Positions 137-58,254 of a stretch of DNA of 58,254 nucleotides are shown in pieces (within the stretch, counting starts at the first letter, position 1; each line of letters begins with the position of its first letter). The notes beneath the pieces are model-generated. The model was not told where the DNA came from. It saw only the letters and a list, made by a program, of their open reading frames with translations, and ran no database searches. Origin of the DNA: Deltaproteobacteria bacterium (GTDB lineage: Bacteria; Lernaellota; Lernaellaia; JACKCT01). The stretch covers positions 1 through 58,254 of the forward strand of contig JADLEX010000086.1 in NCBI GenBank assembly GCA_020845895.1, written 5' to 3'. A program made the position numbers and the translations under genes.

Positions 137-1891
137 TCACGCGTGGTGAACGTCCCCGGCGAGGATCCGCGCGGCCACGTCCTCATCGTTGAACAGGTCC
201 AGAAAAATGACCGCGAGGGCCGGATCGAACTGCGCCCCCGACTGCGTGCGGATCTCGGCCATCGCCTCTGCGAAAGAGAGCGGGGACCGATAGGGGCGTA
301 CGCTCGTCATGGCGTCGAATGCGTCGGCGATGCGGAGGATGCGGCACTCCAGCGGGATCGCCTCTCCGCGCAGTCCGAGCGGATACCCGCTACCGTCCCA
401 ATTTTCGTGGTGATGGAGAATGAGCCGGGCGACCCGGGCCAGGTCGTGTGATCTGGCCGCGATTCGGTGCCCGATCTCGGCGTGGGCGCGAATCGCCGAC
501 AACTCCTGTTCGGAGAGCGGCCCCCGTTTGTGCAGGATCTTGCCGTGCACGCCGACCTTGCCCAGATCGTGCAGCCGGGCGAGCAGGACGAGGTTCTTTC
601 GCTGCGCGTCGGGAAGGTGCAGGCGTTCCGACATGGCTTCGGAGATTCGCGCAACCCGTTCGAGATGCCCCTGGCTGCCGAAATCGTGGGCGTCCAGCGC
701 GGCAACCAGCGTTTCGATGTGGCTCATCGAACTGCCGTTGCGGATCAGCTTGTCGTGATACATGTCGTCGTCGGCGCACTGAAAAATCTCGAAGACGTTC
801 ATGCCGGGATTTTGATCCGAGCACGCGAGACCGATCGAAAACCCGAGCCCCAACATGGCCGGCCCGTGTTCCGCGACCGATGCCGACTCGGTGATGCGAT
901 CCCGCAGCGCCTCGGCGTCTTCGAGCTTCGTGTGCAACGCGACCACGCAGAACTCGTCGCCGCCGGTGCGAAACAGACTGGTGTTCGGGGGCAGGATGCG
1001 TCCGATCGCGTCCGCCGCCGTGACCAGCAGATTGTCGCCCATGGCGTGGCCCATGGTGTCGTTGATGAGCTTGAGGCGATTCACGTCGAGGACGAGGATG
1101 CTGACGGGCGCGTAACGGTCAAAATCGCGTTCCACGACGATCAGGTGTTCGGTGAACGCCGCCCGGTTGAACAGCCCCGTCAGACTGTCGTGAAGCGAAA
1201 GGTGGCGATAGCGCTCCTCGCTGGCGCGCAGCTCGCTTTCGGCCTTTTTGCGTTCGGTGACGTCGATCTCGAGTCCGTCCCAACACGTGGCCCCGTCGCT
1301 CATCCACCGGGGCTTCGAAGCGAACAACGACCAGCCGATCTCGCCCGACGGTCGGCGAATCCGCACCTCGGTCTGAAAAATGCTGAACGCTTCGAGGGCG
1401 AGTTCCTCCTCGGCGATCACGCGGTCGCGGTCGTCCTCCACCACGGTCCCGTAAATCCGGGCCGCATCCGACATCGCCTCCTCGGCCGTGCATCCGTGCA
1501 GCCGTTCGACCGCACCGCTGAGAAACGTGAAACGTCGCGTGCCGTCCGATTCGCGGATGATTTGATAGATCATCCCGACCGGCAGGTTGTTCGCGATCAG
1601 AAGCAGACGCTTTTCGCTCTCGCGCAGCGAAGCCTCGACGCGGCGCCGCTCCCGGATCTCGTAGCGCAACTTCCGCGTAAGTTCCCGCGGATCGGCGCTG
1701 TTGCGGCGGCCGCCCTTCGCCCTAGCGGATTCGATGAACGCGCGCAGATCCTCGCGGCGAAACCGCCAGTCCTTCCCGACCTTGAACGAGGGAATCGCGC
1801 CCCGCCTGGCCAATCGGCGGACGGTTTCGACGTGCGCGCGCAGATAAGCCGCGGCCTCGACGGCGTTCAGAATTTGGGAGGAACGGGGCAA
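137..1891 (-). CDS. HTH-PAS-GGDEF-HD-GYP cyclic-di-GMP regulator
   Basis: Predicted bifunctional cyclic-di-GMP enzyme of 584 aa with its own DNA-binding module. An excisionase/MerR-like helix-turn-helix spans residues about 7-54, a PAS domain about 95-215, a GGDEF domain about 230-385 (intact GGDEF at 310-314) and an HD-GYP domain about 395-560 (HD at 441-442, HHHENWDGSGYP at 493-504). Both catalytic motifs look intact, so it could make and degrade cyclic-di-GMP; no RxxD inhibitory site precedes GGDEF. There is no membrane segment, so it should be cytoplasmic. I chose the TTG at 1891 because a GAGG lies 5 bases upstream and the HTH begins directly after; a longer TTG start at 1975 has no ribosome site. 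The HTH fused to cyclic-di-GMP turnover is unusual. Neighbours give no target. Confidence 0.85.
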   Translation of the reverse strand: MPRSSQILNAVEAAAYLRAHVETVRRLARRGAIPSFKVGKDWRFRREDLRAFIESARAKGGRRNSADPRELTRKLRYEIRERRRVEASLRESEKRLLLIANNLPVGMIYQIIRESDGTRRFTFLSGAVERLHGCTAEEAMSDAARIYGTVVEDDRDRVIAEEELALEAFSIFQTEVRIRRPSGEIGWSLFASKPRWMSDGATCWDGLEIDVTERKKAESELRASEERYRHLSLHDSLTGLFNRAAFTEHLIVVERDFDRYAPVSILVLDVNRLKLINDTMGHAMGDNLLVTAADAIGRILPPNTSLFRTGGDEFCVVALHTKLEDAEALRDRITESASVAEHGPAMLGLGFSIGLACSDQNPGMNVFEIFQCADDDMYHDKLIRNGSSMSHIETLVAALDAHDFGSQGHLERVARISEAMSERLHLPDAQRKNLVLLARLHDLGKVGVHGKILHKRGPLSEQELSAIRAHAEIGHRIAARSHDLARVARLILHHHENWDGSGYPLGLRGEAIPLECRILRIADAFDAMTSVRPYRSPLSFAEAMAEIRTQSGAQFDPALAVIFLDLFNDEDVAARILAGDVHHA

Positions 1892-2017
1892 TCCCGCCTC
1901 GTCACACGCTCGGCATAAAAGGAATAACCCACATGACGCAATGTTGAGTTTAGTGGAGTTTGCACACGGGAGCAATCCGCGCGCCGGCTTCCCGCTTCGC
2001 CGGAACCGATGGCCGAC

Positions 2018-4687
2018 TCAGAACCCCAGCGTCCATGAAATTTCGCGGAACGGATCTCCCGGCGCGGGTGGCGCGTCTTCCTCGATCGCGAAAAACACGT
2101 CGAGCACCTGCCCGCCGGTCGCGGGCGTGAGCGCCGTGGATTCGTCCACGACCGAGATCCCCGCGGGCGCGTCGAAGTCGATGTCGTCGAACGCAAATCC
2201 GTCGGGCACGAAAAACGCCAGATGAAACGCGAACGGCGCGAAGGCCGTGCCCACCGACGCTTCCTGCGTGCCGGTGAGGGTTTGCGCGCCGTCGTCCCAC
2301 TCCACGTCGCGCACGACCTTGACGCCGCCGAGCACGTGGCGGTTCGTGCCCAGAAACTGCGGATGATCCGCGACGGGGCGCAGCGCCACCACGCGCGGCG
2401 TGTGCGCGGGCACCTCCAGCGCGAGTTCGCCGCTCACCGTTCCGAGGTATTGCTCGGTCCAGAATTCGTAGGCGTGATATTCGGCATCCTCGTCGAGCCC
2501 GGCGCGCGCGAAATCGATGCCGATCACGTGATCGTCGTCGGGCGTCTCGGGAAACATCGGCGAGGTCAGGTCGCGATTCGAGCCCCAGTTGAGCAACCCG
2601 ATCACGTGATAGGGCTCGGAGAAATCGGGCACGGGCAGCGAGAGGACTTCGGGAAAATCGCGTTCGAACATATCGAGGGGTCGGCATGCCTGACCGTAGA
2701 CGGGCATGATGCGCCGGTAGCCGTCCACCCATTCGGGCAAAAGATCCACCAGCCGGTCGCCGATCTTCACCAGCCCGCCCTGCAGCGCCACCGCCGACGC
2801 GAAGGTGAGCGACTCGCTCTTCGTGAGCGGCTGGATATTCGTGTCCTCGTGCGCGCGGAAAAAGATGAGGTCCGGGTGATTCACCCACACGCGATTGTGG
2901 AACCAGTACTTGCGCACCGAGTCGCGGTACATGGGCTTGAGGCCCTGATTGTCGACAGGGCTCTCGGGATGCTCGCCGTCCCACGAGGGCATGGTGTCGA
3001 GGGTGAGACGGATCGAATCGACGAGCCCCACGTTCCAGCCCGTGATCGCGACGTTGAGCAGGAACACGTCCGGCCCCAGCGTGTCGCGCATGATCTTTAC
3101 GCCCTCGCGGTAGAATTCGCCGCGCGTGGTGTTGGGCTCGTACCACCCCGCGCTCATCGGCGCGCGGTAGGCGAAATCGAGCTTGACCCACTGCACGCCC
3201 CAGTCGAGGAATTTTTCCATCAACTGGGCCAGATGCGCCTGCACCTCGGGATTCGTCATGTCGAGGCTCGGCGGATCGACACCGAGCAGTCCGAACAGCC
3301 ACGGCCCCACGAACCAGTCCGGGTGATCGGCGTAAATCTGCGCGTCGGTGCGCGCGTTGAACGCCTCGACCCAAAGACCCGTCTGAAACCCGAGGCTGTT
3401 CGCGCGCGCCAGCAGCCACTCGATGCCGTTCTGATCGCCGTGATCGGGGAAGCGGTCTTCGTACGGCGTCCAGTCGCCGACGAGCGCGTAACCGTCGTCG
3501 ATCTGGAAATAGTTCATGCCCCAGCGGCGCAGTTCGCGGTCGGCGAAATCCATGTTGTCGACGATGATCGTCTCGTTGATGTTGGTGCCGTAGCCGCCCG
3601 ACGATCCGCTGCCGCTCCACGAGTTCCAGCCCGCGGGCACGCCAATCTCCGGATGCCGCTCGGTCCAGAGCGTGATGTGGTTCCACGCCTTGAGCCGATC
3701 GGCGTAAAGCTCCAGCGCGTCGAAGGGCGTCGCCTGCCCGAAGTCGATGATGAGCGTCTCGGCGGCCAGGTCATCGCCCGGCGCGAGCGTCTTGGCGAAA
3801 TCGTATTCGCTCGTCGCGTGGAAAACCTGCCCCGGTCCGCCCGCCGAGCGCGGCCCCATGAAAACGACCGGGTAGCCGACCTCGAACGAGAGATACCCCG
3901 CGAGCATATTGTCGCCGGTCACCGGGTTGTGGATGAGCGCGCTCCAGTTCGCGAGCGCGGGGGTCGTGCCGGGAAAGATCGGCGTGATGAACTCGAGAAA
4001 CGTCAGCGTACCGTTGCCCAAGAAACGCAGGTCGCGATCCTCGCCGAACATCAACCTCCCCGCCGGCGGACCCGCGAGCACCACGTACATCGAGCCGACC
4101 TTCAGATCGTCACCGGTGGTGTTGGCGACGCGCATATCGGCGAGCACGGCGCTCTGGTTGTCGAGCAGGGCGAACGAGACGACGAGTTCCGGCTCGCCCG
4201 CGCGCGGCGCCGCAAAGGTGAGGGCGATTTGCATGCCGTCGCCGAGCGCGCAGGTGTAGTCGCCGGAAGTCCAGTTCGCGAGCGTCATCGCGCCGGTCCG
4301 CCATTTGTGCGCGGGGGCCATGACGTTCGACTGCGCGAGCGACTCGGCGCGGTCGATCACCACCACGCCGTCGCCGTCAAGCACGGAATAACGGCCCACC
4401 GAACGGTGATAACGCACCGACACGAGGTTGTTCGCGATCACGAGATCGTCGCCGCTCTCGTAAACGATCACGTCGCCGGTCTGCGCGTCGTCGTCAGCAT
4501 CGTCGTCGGGTAGCGGCGGGAACGTGTCGTCATCGCCCGCCGAATCGTCGTCGTCGGAGTCGTCGTCCGCCGTGTCGTCGTCGACCGGACTGGTGTCGTC
4601 GTTGTCATCATCGTCGCCGCATCCGCACGCCGCAAACGCGAGAGCCATCGCCGCCGCGAAAATCCACACGCCGATCCGTGCTTTCAT
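2018..4687 (-). CDS. alpha-galactosidase-like GH36 lipoprotein with Asp linker
   Basis: Exported 889-aa lipoprotein. The signal peptide ends in the lipobox FAAC, followed at once by an acidic linker of roughly 55 residues that contains DDDTFPPLPDDD. After a beta-rich N-terminal region comes a TIM-barrel domain with clan GH-D features: PAGWNSW, MNYFQIDDGY, the putative nucleophile Asp in WVKLDF, and the putative acid/base Asp in RLTLDTMPSWDGE. This pattern fits alpha-galactosidase or a related GH36 enzyme acting on galactosyl-oligosaccharides at the cell surface; the exact substrate is not readable. The ATG at 4687 is preferred over a TTG at 4708 because GGGGGAG lies 7 bases upstream and the signal peptide starts there. 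It follows the next gene by 28 bases on the same strand and is probably cotranscribed with it. Confidence 0.78.
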   Translation of the reverse strand: MKARIGVWIFAAAMALAFAACGCGDDDDNDDTSPVDDDTADDDSDDDDSAGDDDTFPPLPDDDADDDAQTGDVIVYESGDDLVIANNLVSVRYHRSVGRYSVLDGDGVVVIDRAESLAQSNVMAPAHKWRTGAMTLANWTSGDYTCALGDGMQIALTFAAPRAGEPELVVSFALLDNQSAVLADMRVANTTGDDLKVGSMYVVLAGPPAGRLMFGEDRDLRFLGNGTLTFLEFITPIFPGTTPALANWSALIHNPVTGDNMLAGYLSFEVGYPVVFMGPRSAGGPGQVFHATSEYDFAKTLAPGDDLAAETLIIDFGQATPFDALELYADRLKAWNHITLWTERHPEIGVPAGWNSWSGSGSSGGYGTNINETIIVDNMDFADRELRRWGMNYFQIDDGYALVGDWTPYEDRFPDHGDQNGIEWLLARANSLGFQTGLWVEAFNARTDAQIYADHPDWFVGPWLFGLLGVDPPSLDMTNPEVQAHLAQLMEKFLDWGVQWVKLDFAYRAPMSAGWYEPNTTRGEFYREGVKIMRDTLGPDVFLLNVAITGWNVGLVDSIRLTLDTMPSWDGEHPESPVDNQGLKPMYRDSVRKYWFHNRVWVNHPDLIFFRAHEDTNIQPLTKSESLTFASAVALQGGLVKIGDRLVDLLPEWVDGYRRIMPVYGQACRPLDMFERDFPEVLSLPVPDFSEPYHVIGLLNWGSNRDLTSPMFPETPDDDHVIGIDFARAGLDEDAEYHAYEFWTEQYLGTVSGELALEVPAHTPRVVALRPVADHPQFLGTNRHVLGGVKVVRDVEWDDGAQTLTGTQEASVGTAFAPFAFHLAFFVPDGFAFDDIDFDAPAGISVVDESTALTPATGGQVLDVFFAIEEDAPPAPGDPFREISWTLGF

Positions 4688-54980: not shown

Positions 54981-56033
54981 TCAGCGCCCTTCGCGTTTCG
55001 CAAACAGCGCCCCGATCGTCTCTTCATTCGGCGGCGATGCCACGCCCACCTCGGTGAAGATCGCGGTGATGAGGCGCGCCGGGGTGACGTCGAACGCGGG
55101 ATTGCGCACGGCGATGCCCTCGGGCGCGATCGACACCTTGCCGCCGAGCGTCGTCACCTCGCTCGCCGGGCGCTCCTCGATGCGGATGTGCGTTCCGTCG
55201 GGAATCGCCCGATCGATCGTGGACAGCGGTGCGGCGACGTAGAAGGGGATTCCGTGCTCGCGCGCGAGCACGGCGACGGTGTAGGTGCCGATCTTGTTGG
55301 CCGTGTCGCCGTTTCGCGCGATGCGATCCGCGCCCACGACCACGAGGTCGATCTCGCCGCGCGACATGAGCGCGCCGGCCATGTTGTCGCAGATGAGCGT
55401 CACGTCGATGCCGTCCGCCGCGAGTTCGTACGCGGTGAGCCGAGCGCCCTGCAACCACGGGCGCGTTTCGTCGGCGAGCACGCTCACGCGCTTGCCGGCG
55501 TCCACCGCCGCGCGGATCACGCCGAGCGCCGTGCCGTAGCCGCCGGTGGCGAGCGCCCCGGCGTTGCAGTGCGTGAGAATGCGCGCGCCGTCGGGCACAT
55601 ACACCGCGCCATGGCGGCCCATCGCGCGGCACGAAGCCACGTCGTCGTCGTGAATGCGTTTCGCGAGAGTGAGCAATTCGGCGCGCACGGCGGCGATGCC
55701 GCGCGGCGCGGCGGCGTCGAAGCCGCGTTTCATCTCGCCGATCGCCCAGAAGAGGTTGACGGCGGTGGGCCTTGTCGCACCGAGGAACTTCGCCTTTTCG
55801 TCGAAGAATGCGCGGGCGGCAGTGAGGTCGTCCGGCCCCTGGATCGCCGCGAGGGCGAGGCCGTAGGCCGCGGCGATGCCGATGGCGGGCGCGCCGCGGA
55901 TCGCCATGTCGCGGATCGCCTCGGCGACGTCTTCCGGCGTCTCGCAACGCACGTCGCGCACCACGTGCGGCAGCACGCGCTGGTCGATCATCAGCACGGC
56001 GCCGTCCTTCCACTCGATCGTCCGCACGGTCAT
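54981..56033 (-). CDS. mtnA: S-methyl-5-thioribose-1-phosphate isomerase
   Basis: Methionine-salvage enzyme of 350 aa converting methylthioribose 1-phosphate to methylthioribulose 1-phosphate. Family marks: [13 protein letters not shown], catalytic Cys in [11 protein letters not shown], and catalytic Asp in [25 protein letters not shown] lies 5 bases before the ATG at 56033. No other salvage gene is adjacent. It converges on the membrane glycosyltransferase. Confidence 0.95.
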
Positions 56034-56222
56034 GTCGCCTCCAGGAAGTGCGCGATTTTTATCAGCAAACGCGCTCACCCGGCCAGTGCCGTCCGATTGT
56101 TACGAAATTTTCCTCAAGTTCAACGTCGAATGCGGCGATACGTGGCGCAACGACGCGATGTGAAGTGCGACAGGTTAAACGGGAGTTCACTGTTTTATCC
56201 GATCGATCGTTACGCTAATATA

Positions 56223-56286: not shown

Positions 56287-58020
56287 ATGCACAAATGGCC
56301 CGGATGGATGTTGATTTCGCTTTCCCTCATGGTGTTCGCGACCGGCTGCGGCTGCGGCGACGACGATGACGACGACGACAGCGCGCCGTCGGACGACGAC
56401 ACGACCGACGACGACACGACCGACGATGATTCGACCGACGACGACACCACGGACGATGACACGACCGATGACGACACGACGGATGACGACACGACCGACG
56501 ACGATACCGACGTCGAGTACGATTCGCTCGAATGCGATCTGCCCGACCCCGCGTCGCTCGGCAGCGGCAACCTGATCGGCGGCGGATCGCCCACCGGCAC
56601 GATCGACGTGTACGTCTTCGACGGCGAAACCTGCGATCCGATCGAGAACGCCGAGGTTGCCCACGGCGGCGCAACCTACACCACCGACGTCGACGGCTAC
56701 GCCGAAGTTCTGCTGACCGACGCGGCCGAGCTCGTGACCGCTTGGGAAGACAACCACTGGGCGTGGAGCTATACCGCCGACGCGTCGGTGATGTACTTCC
56801 GCCTGCGTCCGGACGAGTACGCGGGAACGTATTCCGACTCCGACCTCGCGGACTTCACGCAGGACGGCACGCCGCTCAGCCTGGCCGCGACCACGCTCGG
56901 CAACCTCTTCTCGTCGCCGATCTATCTGGGCGCGGCGCTGCCCGGCATCTCGCTCGAGACGCTCTTCGGCGCCGACTACGACAACTTCTTCACGCAGGGC
57001 GCTTTCGACCTGACGCTCAACACCGGCTCCCCCGAGGTGACCGAAGTTCCGCTGAACGTCTACCTGCCCGGCATCGACATCACCGTGCTCACGTACGGCG
57101 TCGAAGGCGAAAATCCCCAATACGCCGTCCCGGTGAACAGCGCCGCCGCCACCAGCCCCGTCGAGGGCTTCGTGGCCGCGGTCGATGTCGCCGCGGCGAT
57201 TCCCAACCTGGCGACGCTCACCTCCGTGATCACGTGCGTCGTCGCGAATCCCGACGACATCCTGGGGTGCGTCTCCAGCCTGATCGAGCCGATCCTGAAC
57301 GAGGGCCTGACGATCCAGTACGCGGGCGCGGACCCGGGCTGGGACGGCGCCGGCGCGCCGGATATCGAGGTCGCCGACGGGTCGGCCAAGGGTTCCTTCG
57401 ACGTGGCGATCGCGAATCCCGACGCGTCGTACGACTACCTCGCCATCGCGGGCGCGCTCATTCCCAACCGCGCGATCCTGCCGACGGCGCTCGGTCTCGC
57501 CGACGGAAACGGTGACCTCACCCTCGACACGATCGCGATCCCAGACGCCGACTACGGCGTGCTGGTCGGACAGACCGACCTGCTCGTCTCCGGCCTGACC
57601 TCGATGAACTTCTCGTTCGCGATTCGCTGGGCCGAGAGCCTGTCCGACTGGTCGACCGGAGTCGATCTCGATGCCGACACCGACTTCCTGCCGAACTTCG
57701 ACGCGGGCAACACCAGCTACGACGACGTGACCGGCGAGCTGTCGTGGGCGCTCGAAGCCGGCGACGCGCCGGATGTCTACCAGATCGTGTACGTCCCCGA
57801 AGGCCAGAAGGTCGTCTTCGCGCAGGTGCCCGGCACAGCCACCTCGTGGGAGCCGCCGGTCACCGAGATGGGCATCGTCCCCGGTGAGGGCGACATCGTC
57901 GTGATCTTCGGCATCGACCTGCCCGACGACGTGGATGTGGATGCCTACAACCCGCTCGCGGTTCCGGCTCTGAAGAGCAGCGCCGTGAATCTGTGGACGA
58001 ACCTCGTACTCTCGCTCTGA
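56287..58020 (+). CDS. lipoprotein of unknown function with Asp/Thr-repeat linker
   Basis: Exported lipoprotein of 577 aa with no recognised catalytic domain. Signal peptide with lipobox ATGC, then CGDDDDDDD and about ten DDDTT units to residue about 75. Residues about 90-170 look like a carboxypeptidase-regulatory-type beta-sandwich (GTIDVYVFDGETCDPIENAEV, TTDVDGYAEVLL); the rest is beta-rich, with a region (about 230-350) rich in Ala, Val and Ile. AAGGAG lies 8 bases before the ATG. A terminator follows, next to an intron start. Confidence 0.8.
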   Translation: MHKWPGWMLISLSLMVFATGCGCGDDDDDDDSAPSDDDTTDDDTTDDDSTDDDTTDDDTTDDDTTDDDTTDDDTDVEYDSLECDLPDPASLGSGNLIGGGSPTGTIDVYVFDGETCDPIENAEVAHGGATYTTDVDGYAEVLLTDAAELVTAWEDNHWAWSYTADASVMYFRLRPDEYAGTYSDSDLADFTQDGTPLSLAATTLGNLFSSPIYLGAALPGISLETLFGADYDNFFTQGAFDLTLNTGSPEVTEVPLNVYLPGIDITVLTYGVEGENPQYAVPVNSAAATSPVEGFVAAVDVAAAIPNLATLTSVITCVVANPDDILGCVSSLIEPILNEGLTIQYAGADPGWDGAGAPDIEVADGSAKGSFDVAIANPDASYDYLAIAGALIPNRAILPTALGLADGNGDLTLDTIAIPDADYGVLVGQTDLLVSGLTSMNFSFAIRWAESLSDWSTGVDLDADTDFLPNFDAGNTSYDDVTGELSWALEAGDAPDVYQIVYVPEGQKVVFAQVPGTATSWEPPVTEMGIVPGEGDIVVIFGIDLPDDVDVDAYNPLAVPALKSSAVNLWTNLVLSL

Positions 58021-58060
58021 TCCCCCGCGCCGCCGCGGCGCGACCCATCGCTGAAGTGCA

Positions 58061-58094
58061 CACCCCGCCGGCCCGCGCCGGCGGGGGGTGATTT
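58061..58094 (+). terminator. terminator of the 56287 lipoprotein gene
   Basis: CACCCCGCCGG (58061-58071) pairs with CCGGCGGGGGGTG (58078-58090; two extra G), followed by ATTT and then the intron-like GTGCG. Confidence 0.75.
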
Positions 58095-58254
58095 GTGCGC
58101 CCAGCATGGGCGCTGTCTTGTTGGTGGAAGTCCGACCGAGAGGAGGCCATCCCGATCGAAGCGAAGCGCAACCGCGGAAGGGCGACCGACCGTGGGGAGG
58201 AAGCGTGGAGCGAAAGCGCGGGCCGACGTACAGAAACCGGATTCGAGGCGACGC
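58095..58254 (+). mobile_element. 5' end of a group II intron, class C-like (cut by window edge)
   Basis: Begins with GTGCGCCCAGC, matching the GUGYG 5' end and first helix (GCGCCC-AGCAT-GGGCGC) of bacterial group II introns. Domain I-like segments follow (GTGGAAGTCCGACC, AAGCGTGGAGCGAAAGCG, CAGAAACCGGATTCGAGGCG). It sits 4 bases after a terminator stem, the known insertion preference of class C introns. The reverse transcriptase gene and the 3' end would be beyond the window. Confidence 0.75.

Follow-up and report, generated by a model that had tools for sequence, protein, structure and literature searches.

Class C group II introns of bacteria have no endonuclease, and their insertion sites are intrinsic terminators (PMC4424553, PMC8919778, PMC3898094). 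Recognition of a hairpin and of IBS sequences by the intron ribonucleoprotein (RNP), reverse splicing and the use of a replication-derived primer all belong to the biology described for this class (PMC4424553, PMC3898094), and IIC introns need their protein for splicing by branching (PMC7161350). The g6, U1 and U2 introns, close to class C on the tree of reverse transcriptases (RTs), are likewise reported from sites behind terminators (PMC8919778). Described systems include GsI-IIC of Geobacillus stearothermophilus (PDB 6ar1), which has RT and maturase domains, inserts at terminator hairpins and has an AY 3' end, and the E. rectale-type intron, whose maturase has been solved (PDB 7uim). Group II introns carry their RT/maturase ORF in domain IV; further marks of class C are a CGC-type catalytic triad in D5 and short IBS1-EBS1 and IBS3-EBS3 pairings with no EBS2.

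Here we describe an intron at the end of a 58,254-nt stretch of DNA (the window), which is the entire contig C86 (1-58254) of genome G000, an assembly of 4.98 Mb in 171 contigs. Since the window is the whole contig, it is the contig itself that ends within the intron. We conclude with very high confidence that a bacterial group II intron of class C (IIC) begins at 58095, with its 5' end filling the contig up to 58254. Complete, such an intron measures about 1.85 kb; this one sits just behind the terminator hairpin that follows the gene at 56287-58020 and has the same orientation as that gene.

Results

An intron 5' end behind a terminator hairpin

The last complete + strand gene of the contig, an ORF at 56287-58020, encodes a 577-aa protein with a lipoprotein-like start followed by a D/T-rich repeat (DDDTTDDDTT); a Pfam scan of this protein returned no family. 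Homologues of the gene are present in all seven genomes of the phylum. A search with the protein gave 91 matches in its own genome and 13-71 in the relatives, mostly to the leader region only. Past the stop codon of this gene, the insertion site is marked by a terminator-type hairpin (58059-58090, + strand), in which three outer pairs extend a 10-bp core of G-C pairs only (58063-58072 with 58077-58086); a terminator scan matched it with its core at 58063-58086. The hairpin folds at -28.7 kcal/mol (z -3.5), and none of 200 shuffles was equally stable. Direct reading places the final four bases of the 5' exon, ATTT, at 58091-58094 (+ strand), between hairpin and intron. As this U-run is weak, the terminator is of the type without a long U-tract.

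On the + strand, GTGCGCCCAGC begins at 58095. The intron start at this position, GTGCGCCCAGCATGGGCGC, follows ATTT directly, and the contig stops 160 nt further on. The 5' boundary was set by alignment with eight other copies, all of which begin with the GTGCG that is present here. The 160 nt within the window (58095-58254, + strand) belong to domain I and are 97% identical both to the complete sister-genome intron described below and to a second copy in G000, on contig C94. An Rfam scan matched RF02001 (group-II-D1D4-3, model positions 1-79 of 170) at 58176-58254 (+ strand), with 41.5 bits against a gathering score of 32 and an E value of 4.9e-5 for the window; this is the sole Rfam intron match within the window, and it is incomplete at the 3' contig end alone. 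A 149-nt piece of domain I folded alone gave no thermodynamic signal (z +1.7), and the evidence for domain I is therefore homology, not fold energy. The initial annotation had placed the intron start four bases past the terminator stem, and this spacing is exact. Its impression that the ensuing ~150 bases resemble domain I is borne out by the identity to the sister intron and by RF02001; the covariance-model run it had proposed returned a match above the gathering score. As it also stated, the 5' end alone lies inside the window, with the contig end cutting the intron at 58254.

A complete relative in a sister genome

The intron is present in two of the seven genomes of the phylum that were searched. 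The second, G001, belongs to the same family and contains the 5' end and the 3' end of the intron six times each; one pair is joined in a single contig and gives a complete intron of 1848 nt (C34:4-1851) that starts with GTGCG and finishes with ...CCGAT, an AY 3' end. Its ORF, at 386-1759, encodes a 457-aa RT/maturase in which a domain search found the RVT_1 and GIIM maturase domains and found no endonuclease domain; against the NCBIfam group II RT/maturase model the protein scores 401 bits (cut-off 300). The D5/D6 hairpins fold at -48.3 kcal/mol (z -5.8). The fold shows a bulge of 2 nt and a loop of 4 nt, and in D6 an A is bulged, the 8th nucleotide counted from the 3' end; in our reading the folded D5 has a C-G-C strand with a G.U in the middle. 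The domain V model RF00029 gave no match on D5 of the C86/G001 subfamily even at E 0.05; a plasmid relative does score. The RT/maturase, domain V and AY 3' end that were to be sought beyond the window are thus found in this complete relative, 97% identical over 160 nt, while the remainder of the C86 copy lies off the contig.

A hairpin lies directly upstream at all nine readable insertion sites of the two genomes. The first base past the intron 3' end is T in eight of nine cases, which is compatible with IBS3. A search for EBS1 by complementarity to the nine 5' exons found no intron stretch that pairs with all nine.

Other copies in the same genome

Besides that of C86, G000 has three further 5' ends (C94:7506, C155:4660 and C71:18110; four in total), each preceded by a hairpin, and three 3' ends (on C24, C92 and C51) which carry domain V/VI and the AY end. 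The 3' ends are conserved up to ...CCCCTATGCCGAT and divergent beyond. C86 and C155 break off inside domain I, and C92 and C51 break off about 46 nt ahead of domain V, a pattern from which we infer a near-identical repeat that the assembler did not cross; the most likely reason for C86 ending at 58254 is that the intron is repeated. The C94 and C71 copies are truncated 5' fragments within their contigs, and the C24 copy has lost most of its ORF and retains both ORF ends and D5/D6. This ORF-deleted remnant was all that a search for an intact RT of the C86-type intron yielded among the assembled contigs of G000. No 3' contig of G000 could be linked to the end of C86, and a search by synteny around the upstream-gene homologues for an empty site or a joining 3' contig found no adjacent gene in common.

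Several neighbouring sequences were seen at these copies. At intron nt 364 the C71 fragment joins a ~35-bp sequence (L012 ~4474-4505), which recurs at the ends of C82 and C25 (L028 85-125; L029 ~2000-2045) and looks like an IS element end; given this junction, an IS may have truncated the C71 copy. On C92 (L165 119-760), a fragment lies directly past the intron 3' end that is 80% identical to residues 10-68 of an isomerase-like protein encoded at 54981-56078 of the window, and a HigB-type toxin gene (Pfam 109 bits) comes after it.

Two other RTs of G000 were considered and rejected. That on C130 (L009, G000:C130:1-8000, ~193-3006) is a second, diverged group II RT, 53% identical to the GsI-IIC RT, and belongs to an element with a domain V match to RF00029 (45.7 bits). 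It is split by an insertion bearing a DDE_3 transposase on the opposite strand, and upstream of it we recognised no 5' intron end that would match. We do not regard it as the missing half of the C86 intron since it is only ~50% identical to the sister RT and its element is arranged differently. The RT on C111 (L013, 3415-6345) is part of a 977-aa Cas6-RT-Cas1 fusion (Pfam Cas_Cas1 202, RVT_1 125 and Cas6 26 bits) and not an intron RT; judging from its sequence, it is a CRISPR adaptation protein of the RNA-spacer-acquiring type.

Class and site preference

Compared with solved proteins, the 457-aa RT scores 456 bits with the GsI-IIC RT (52.6% identity), 319 with the 7uim maturase (42.9%), 122 with the IIA protein LtrA (35.4%) and 113 with the 6me0 maturase. 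The terminator rule was tested on 80 genome loci encoding relatives of this RT, of which 56 have a readable intron 5' end. The 45-mer upstream folds below -15 kcal/mol in 89% of these 56 relatives, whereas the figure is 24% for 270 control 45-mers taken from these loci, and the mean fold energies are -21.1 and -11.8 kcal/mol, respectively. The initial description of the intron as group IIC-like therefore holds, as the RT of the sister copy is closest to a IIC enzyme and all insertion sites seen are behind hairpins; we base the assignment to class C on the comparison of this sister-genome protein with solved proteins and on the choice of insertion sites.

Discussion

The chief alternative to a longer intron running off the contig is that C86 carries a dead 5' fragment, like those on C94 and C71, from which the RT and the 3' half have been lost. 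Half of the four 5' ends of G000 are indeed fragments inside contigs, and the one on C94 is 97% identical to the C86 copy. However, unique sequence follows the C94 and C71 fragments within their contigs, while C86 breaks off within the intron, which is what a longer, repeated copy would produce, and the near-identical 3' ends on C92 and C51 are still without a 5' partner. We thus consider a dead fragment unlikely, although it is the alternative to which we give real weight. That such 3'-truncated 5' ends behind terminators (C94, C71 and possibly C86) are retained for an effect on termination or through service in trans, and are not mere decay, strikes us as hardly credible; all that speaks for it is the presence of the fragments.

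An intron of a class near C, such as bacterial g6 or the unclassified U1/U2, might also account for the locus given the shared habit of inserting behind terminators and the proximity on the RT tree noted above (PMC8919778). Against this, GsI-IIC resembles the RT more closely than does the E. rectale maturase, which is also solved and of the IIC kind, and if both of these are class C the two scores place the RT within the class C spread; we regard a near-C class as improbable. Nor do we believe that misassembly created the junction at 58095 and that the intron does not truly lie behind the 56287-58020 gene. The assembly is fragmented, and misjoins occur at repeats, but the junction falls exactly at the first nucleotide of the intron, at the expected distance past the hairpin, and the same arrangement recurs at eight further insertion sites across the two genomes, which makes a misjoin extremely improbable. 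We favour a class C intron that may continue beyond the end of C86.

Based on what is described for the class, we propose the following model. The intron RNA and its own endonuclease-less RT/maturase would recognise the hairpin together with short IBS1/IBS3 matches, and the RNP would then reverse-splice into the DNA. The replication fork would supply the primer with which the inserted intron RNA is copied into cDNA. From transcripts that read through, the intron could splice out again, aided by the maturase. That the C86 intron itself may be active is something we infer by analogy.

These observations add a sparsely sampled phylum to the range of IIC introns, in which phylum two of seven genomes carry this one, and illustrate again that terminator targeting allows several copies without gene disruption. 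The repeated intron would also explain why a number of contigs end where they do; it settles no outstanding question.

Compared with the C86/G001 intron, the GsI-IIC and E. rectale-type introns reside in another host phylum and differ by sequence divergence only; we saw no mechanistic difference. At the DNA level, plasmid introns from Rhizobium, Pseudomonas, Leclercia and others are 78-84% identical. The three for which annotation was examined, on plasmids of Rhizobium acidisoli (NZ_CP035001), Pseudomonas putida (NZ_AP015030) and Leclercia adecarboxylata (NZ_CP040895), all have ltrA; they are 80-84% identical over the intron 5' end, which likewise lies behind a hairpin, with the RT ORF a few hundred bases downstream; their RTs are 61-62% identical to the sister-genome RT, and their hosts are distant (Pseudomonadota). 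Intron RTs of Deltaproteobacteria, Myxococcales/Polyangiaceae, Eisenbacteria, Gemmatimonadetes, Planctomycetes and Burkholderiales (L054-L133) match the sister RT over its full length at 61-73% identity (27-39% protein divergence), with an upstream hairpin in most of the 56 readable cases, and this wide RT family looks to have spread horizontally. Given that plasmid introns of such similarity are known and that close RT relatives occur across many phyla, the intron is a further member of class C (IIC), ordinary apart from the little-sampled phylum in which it is found.
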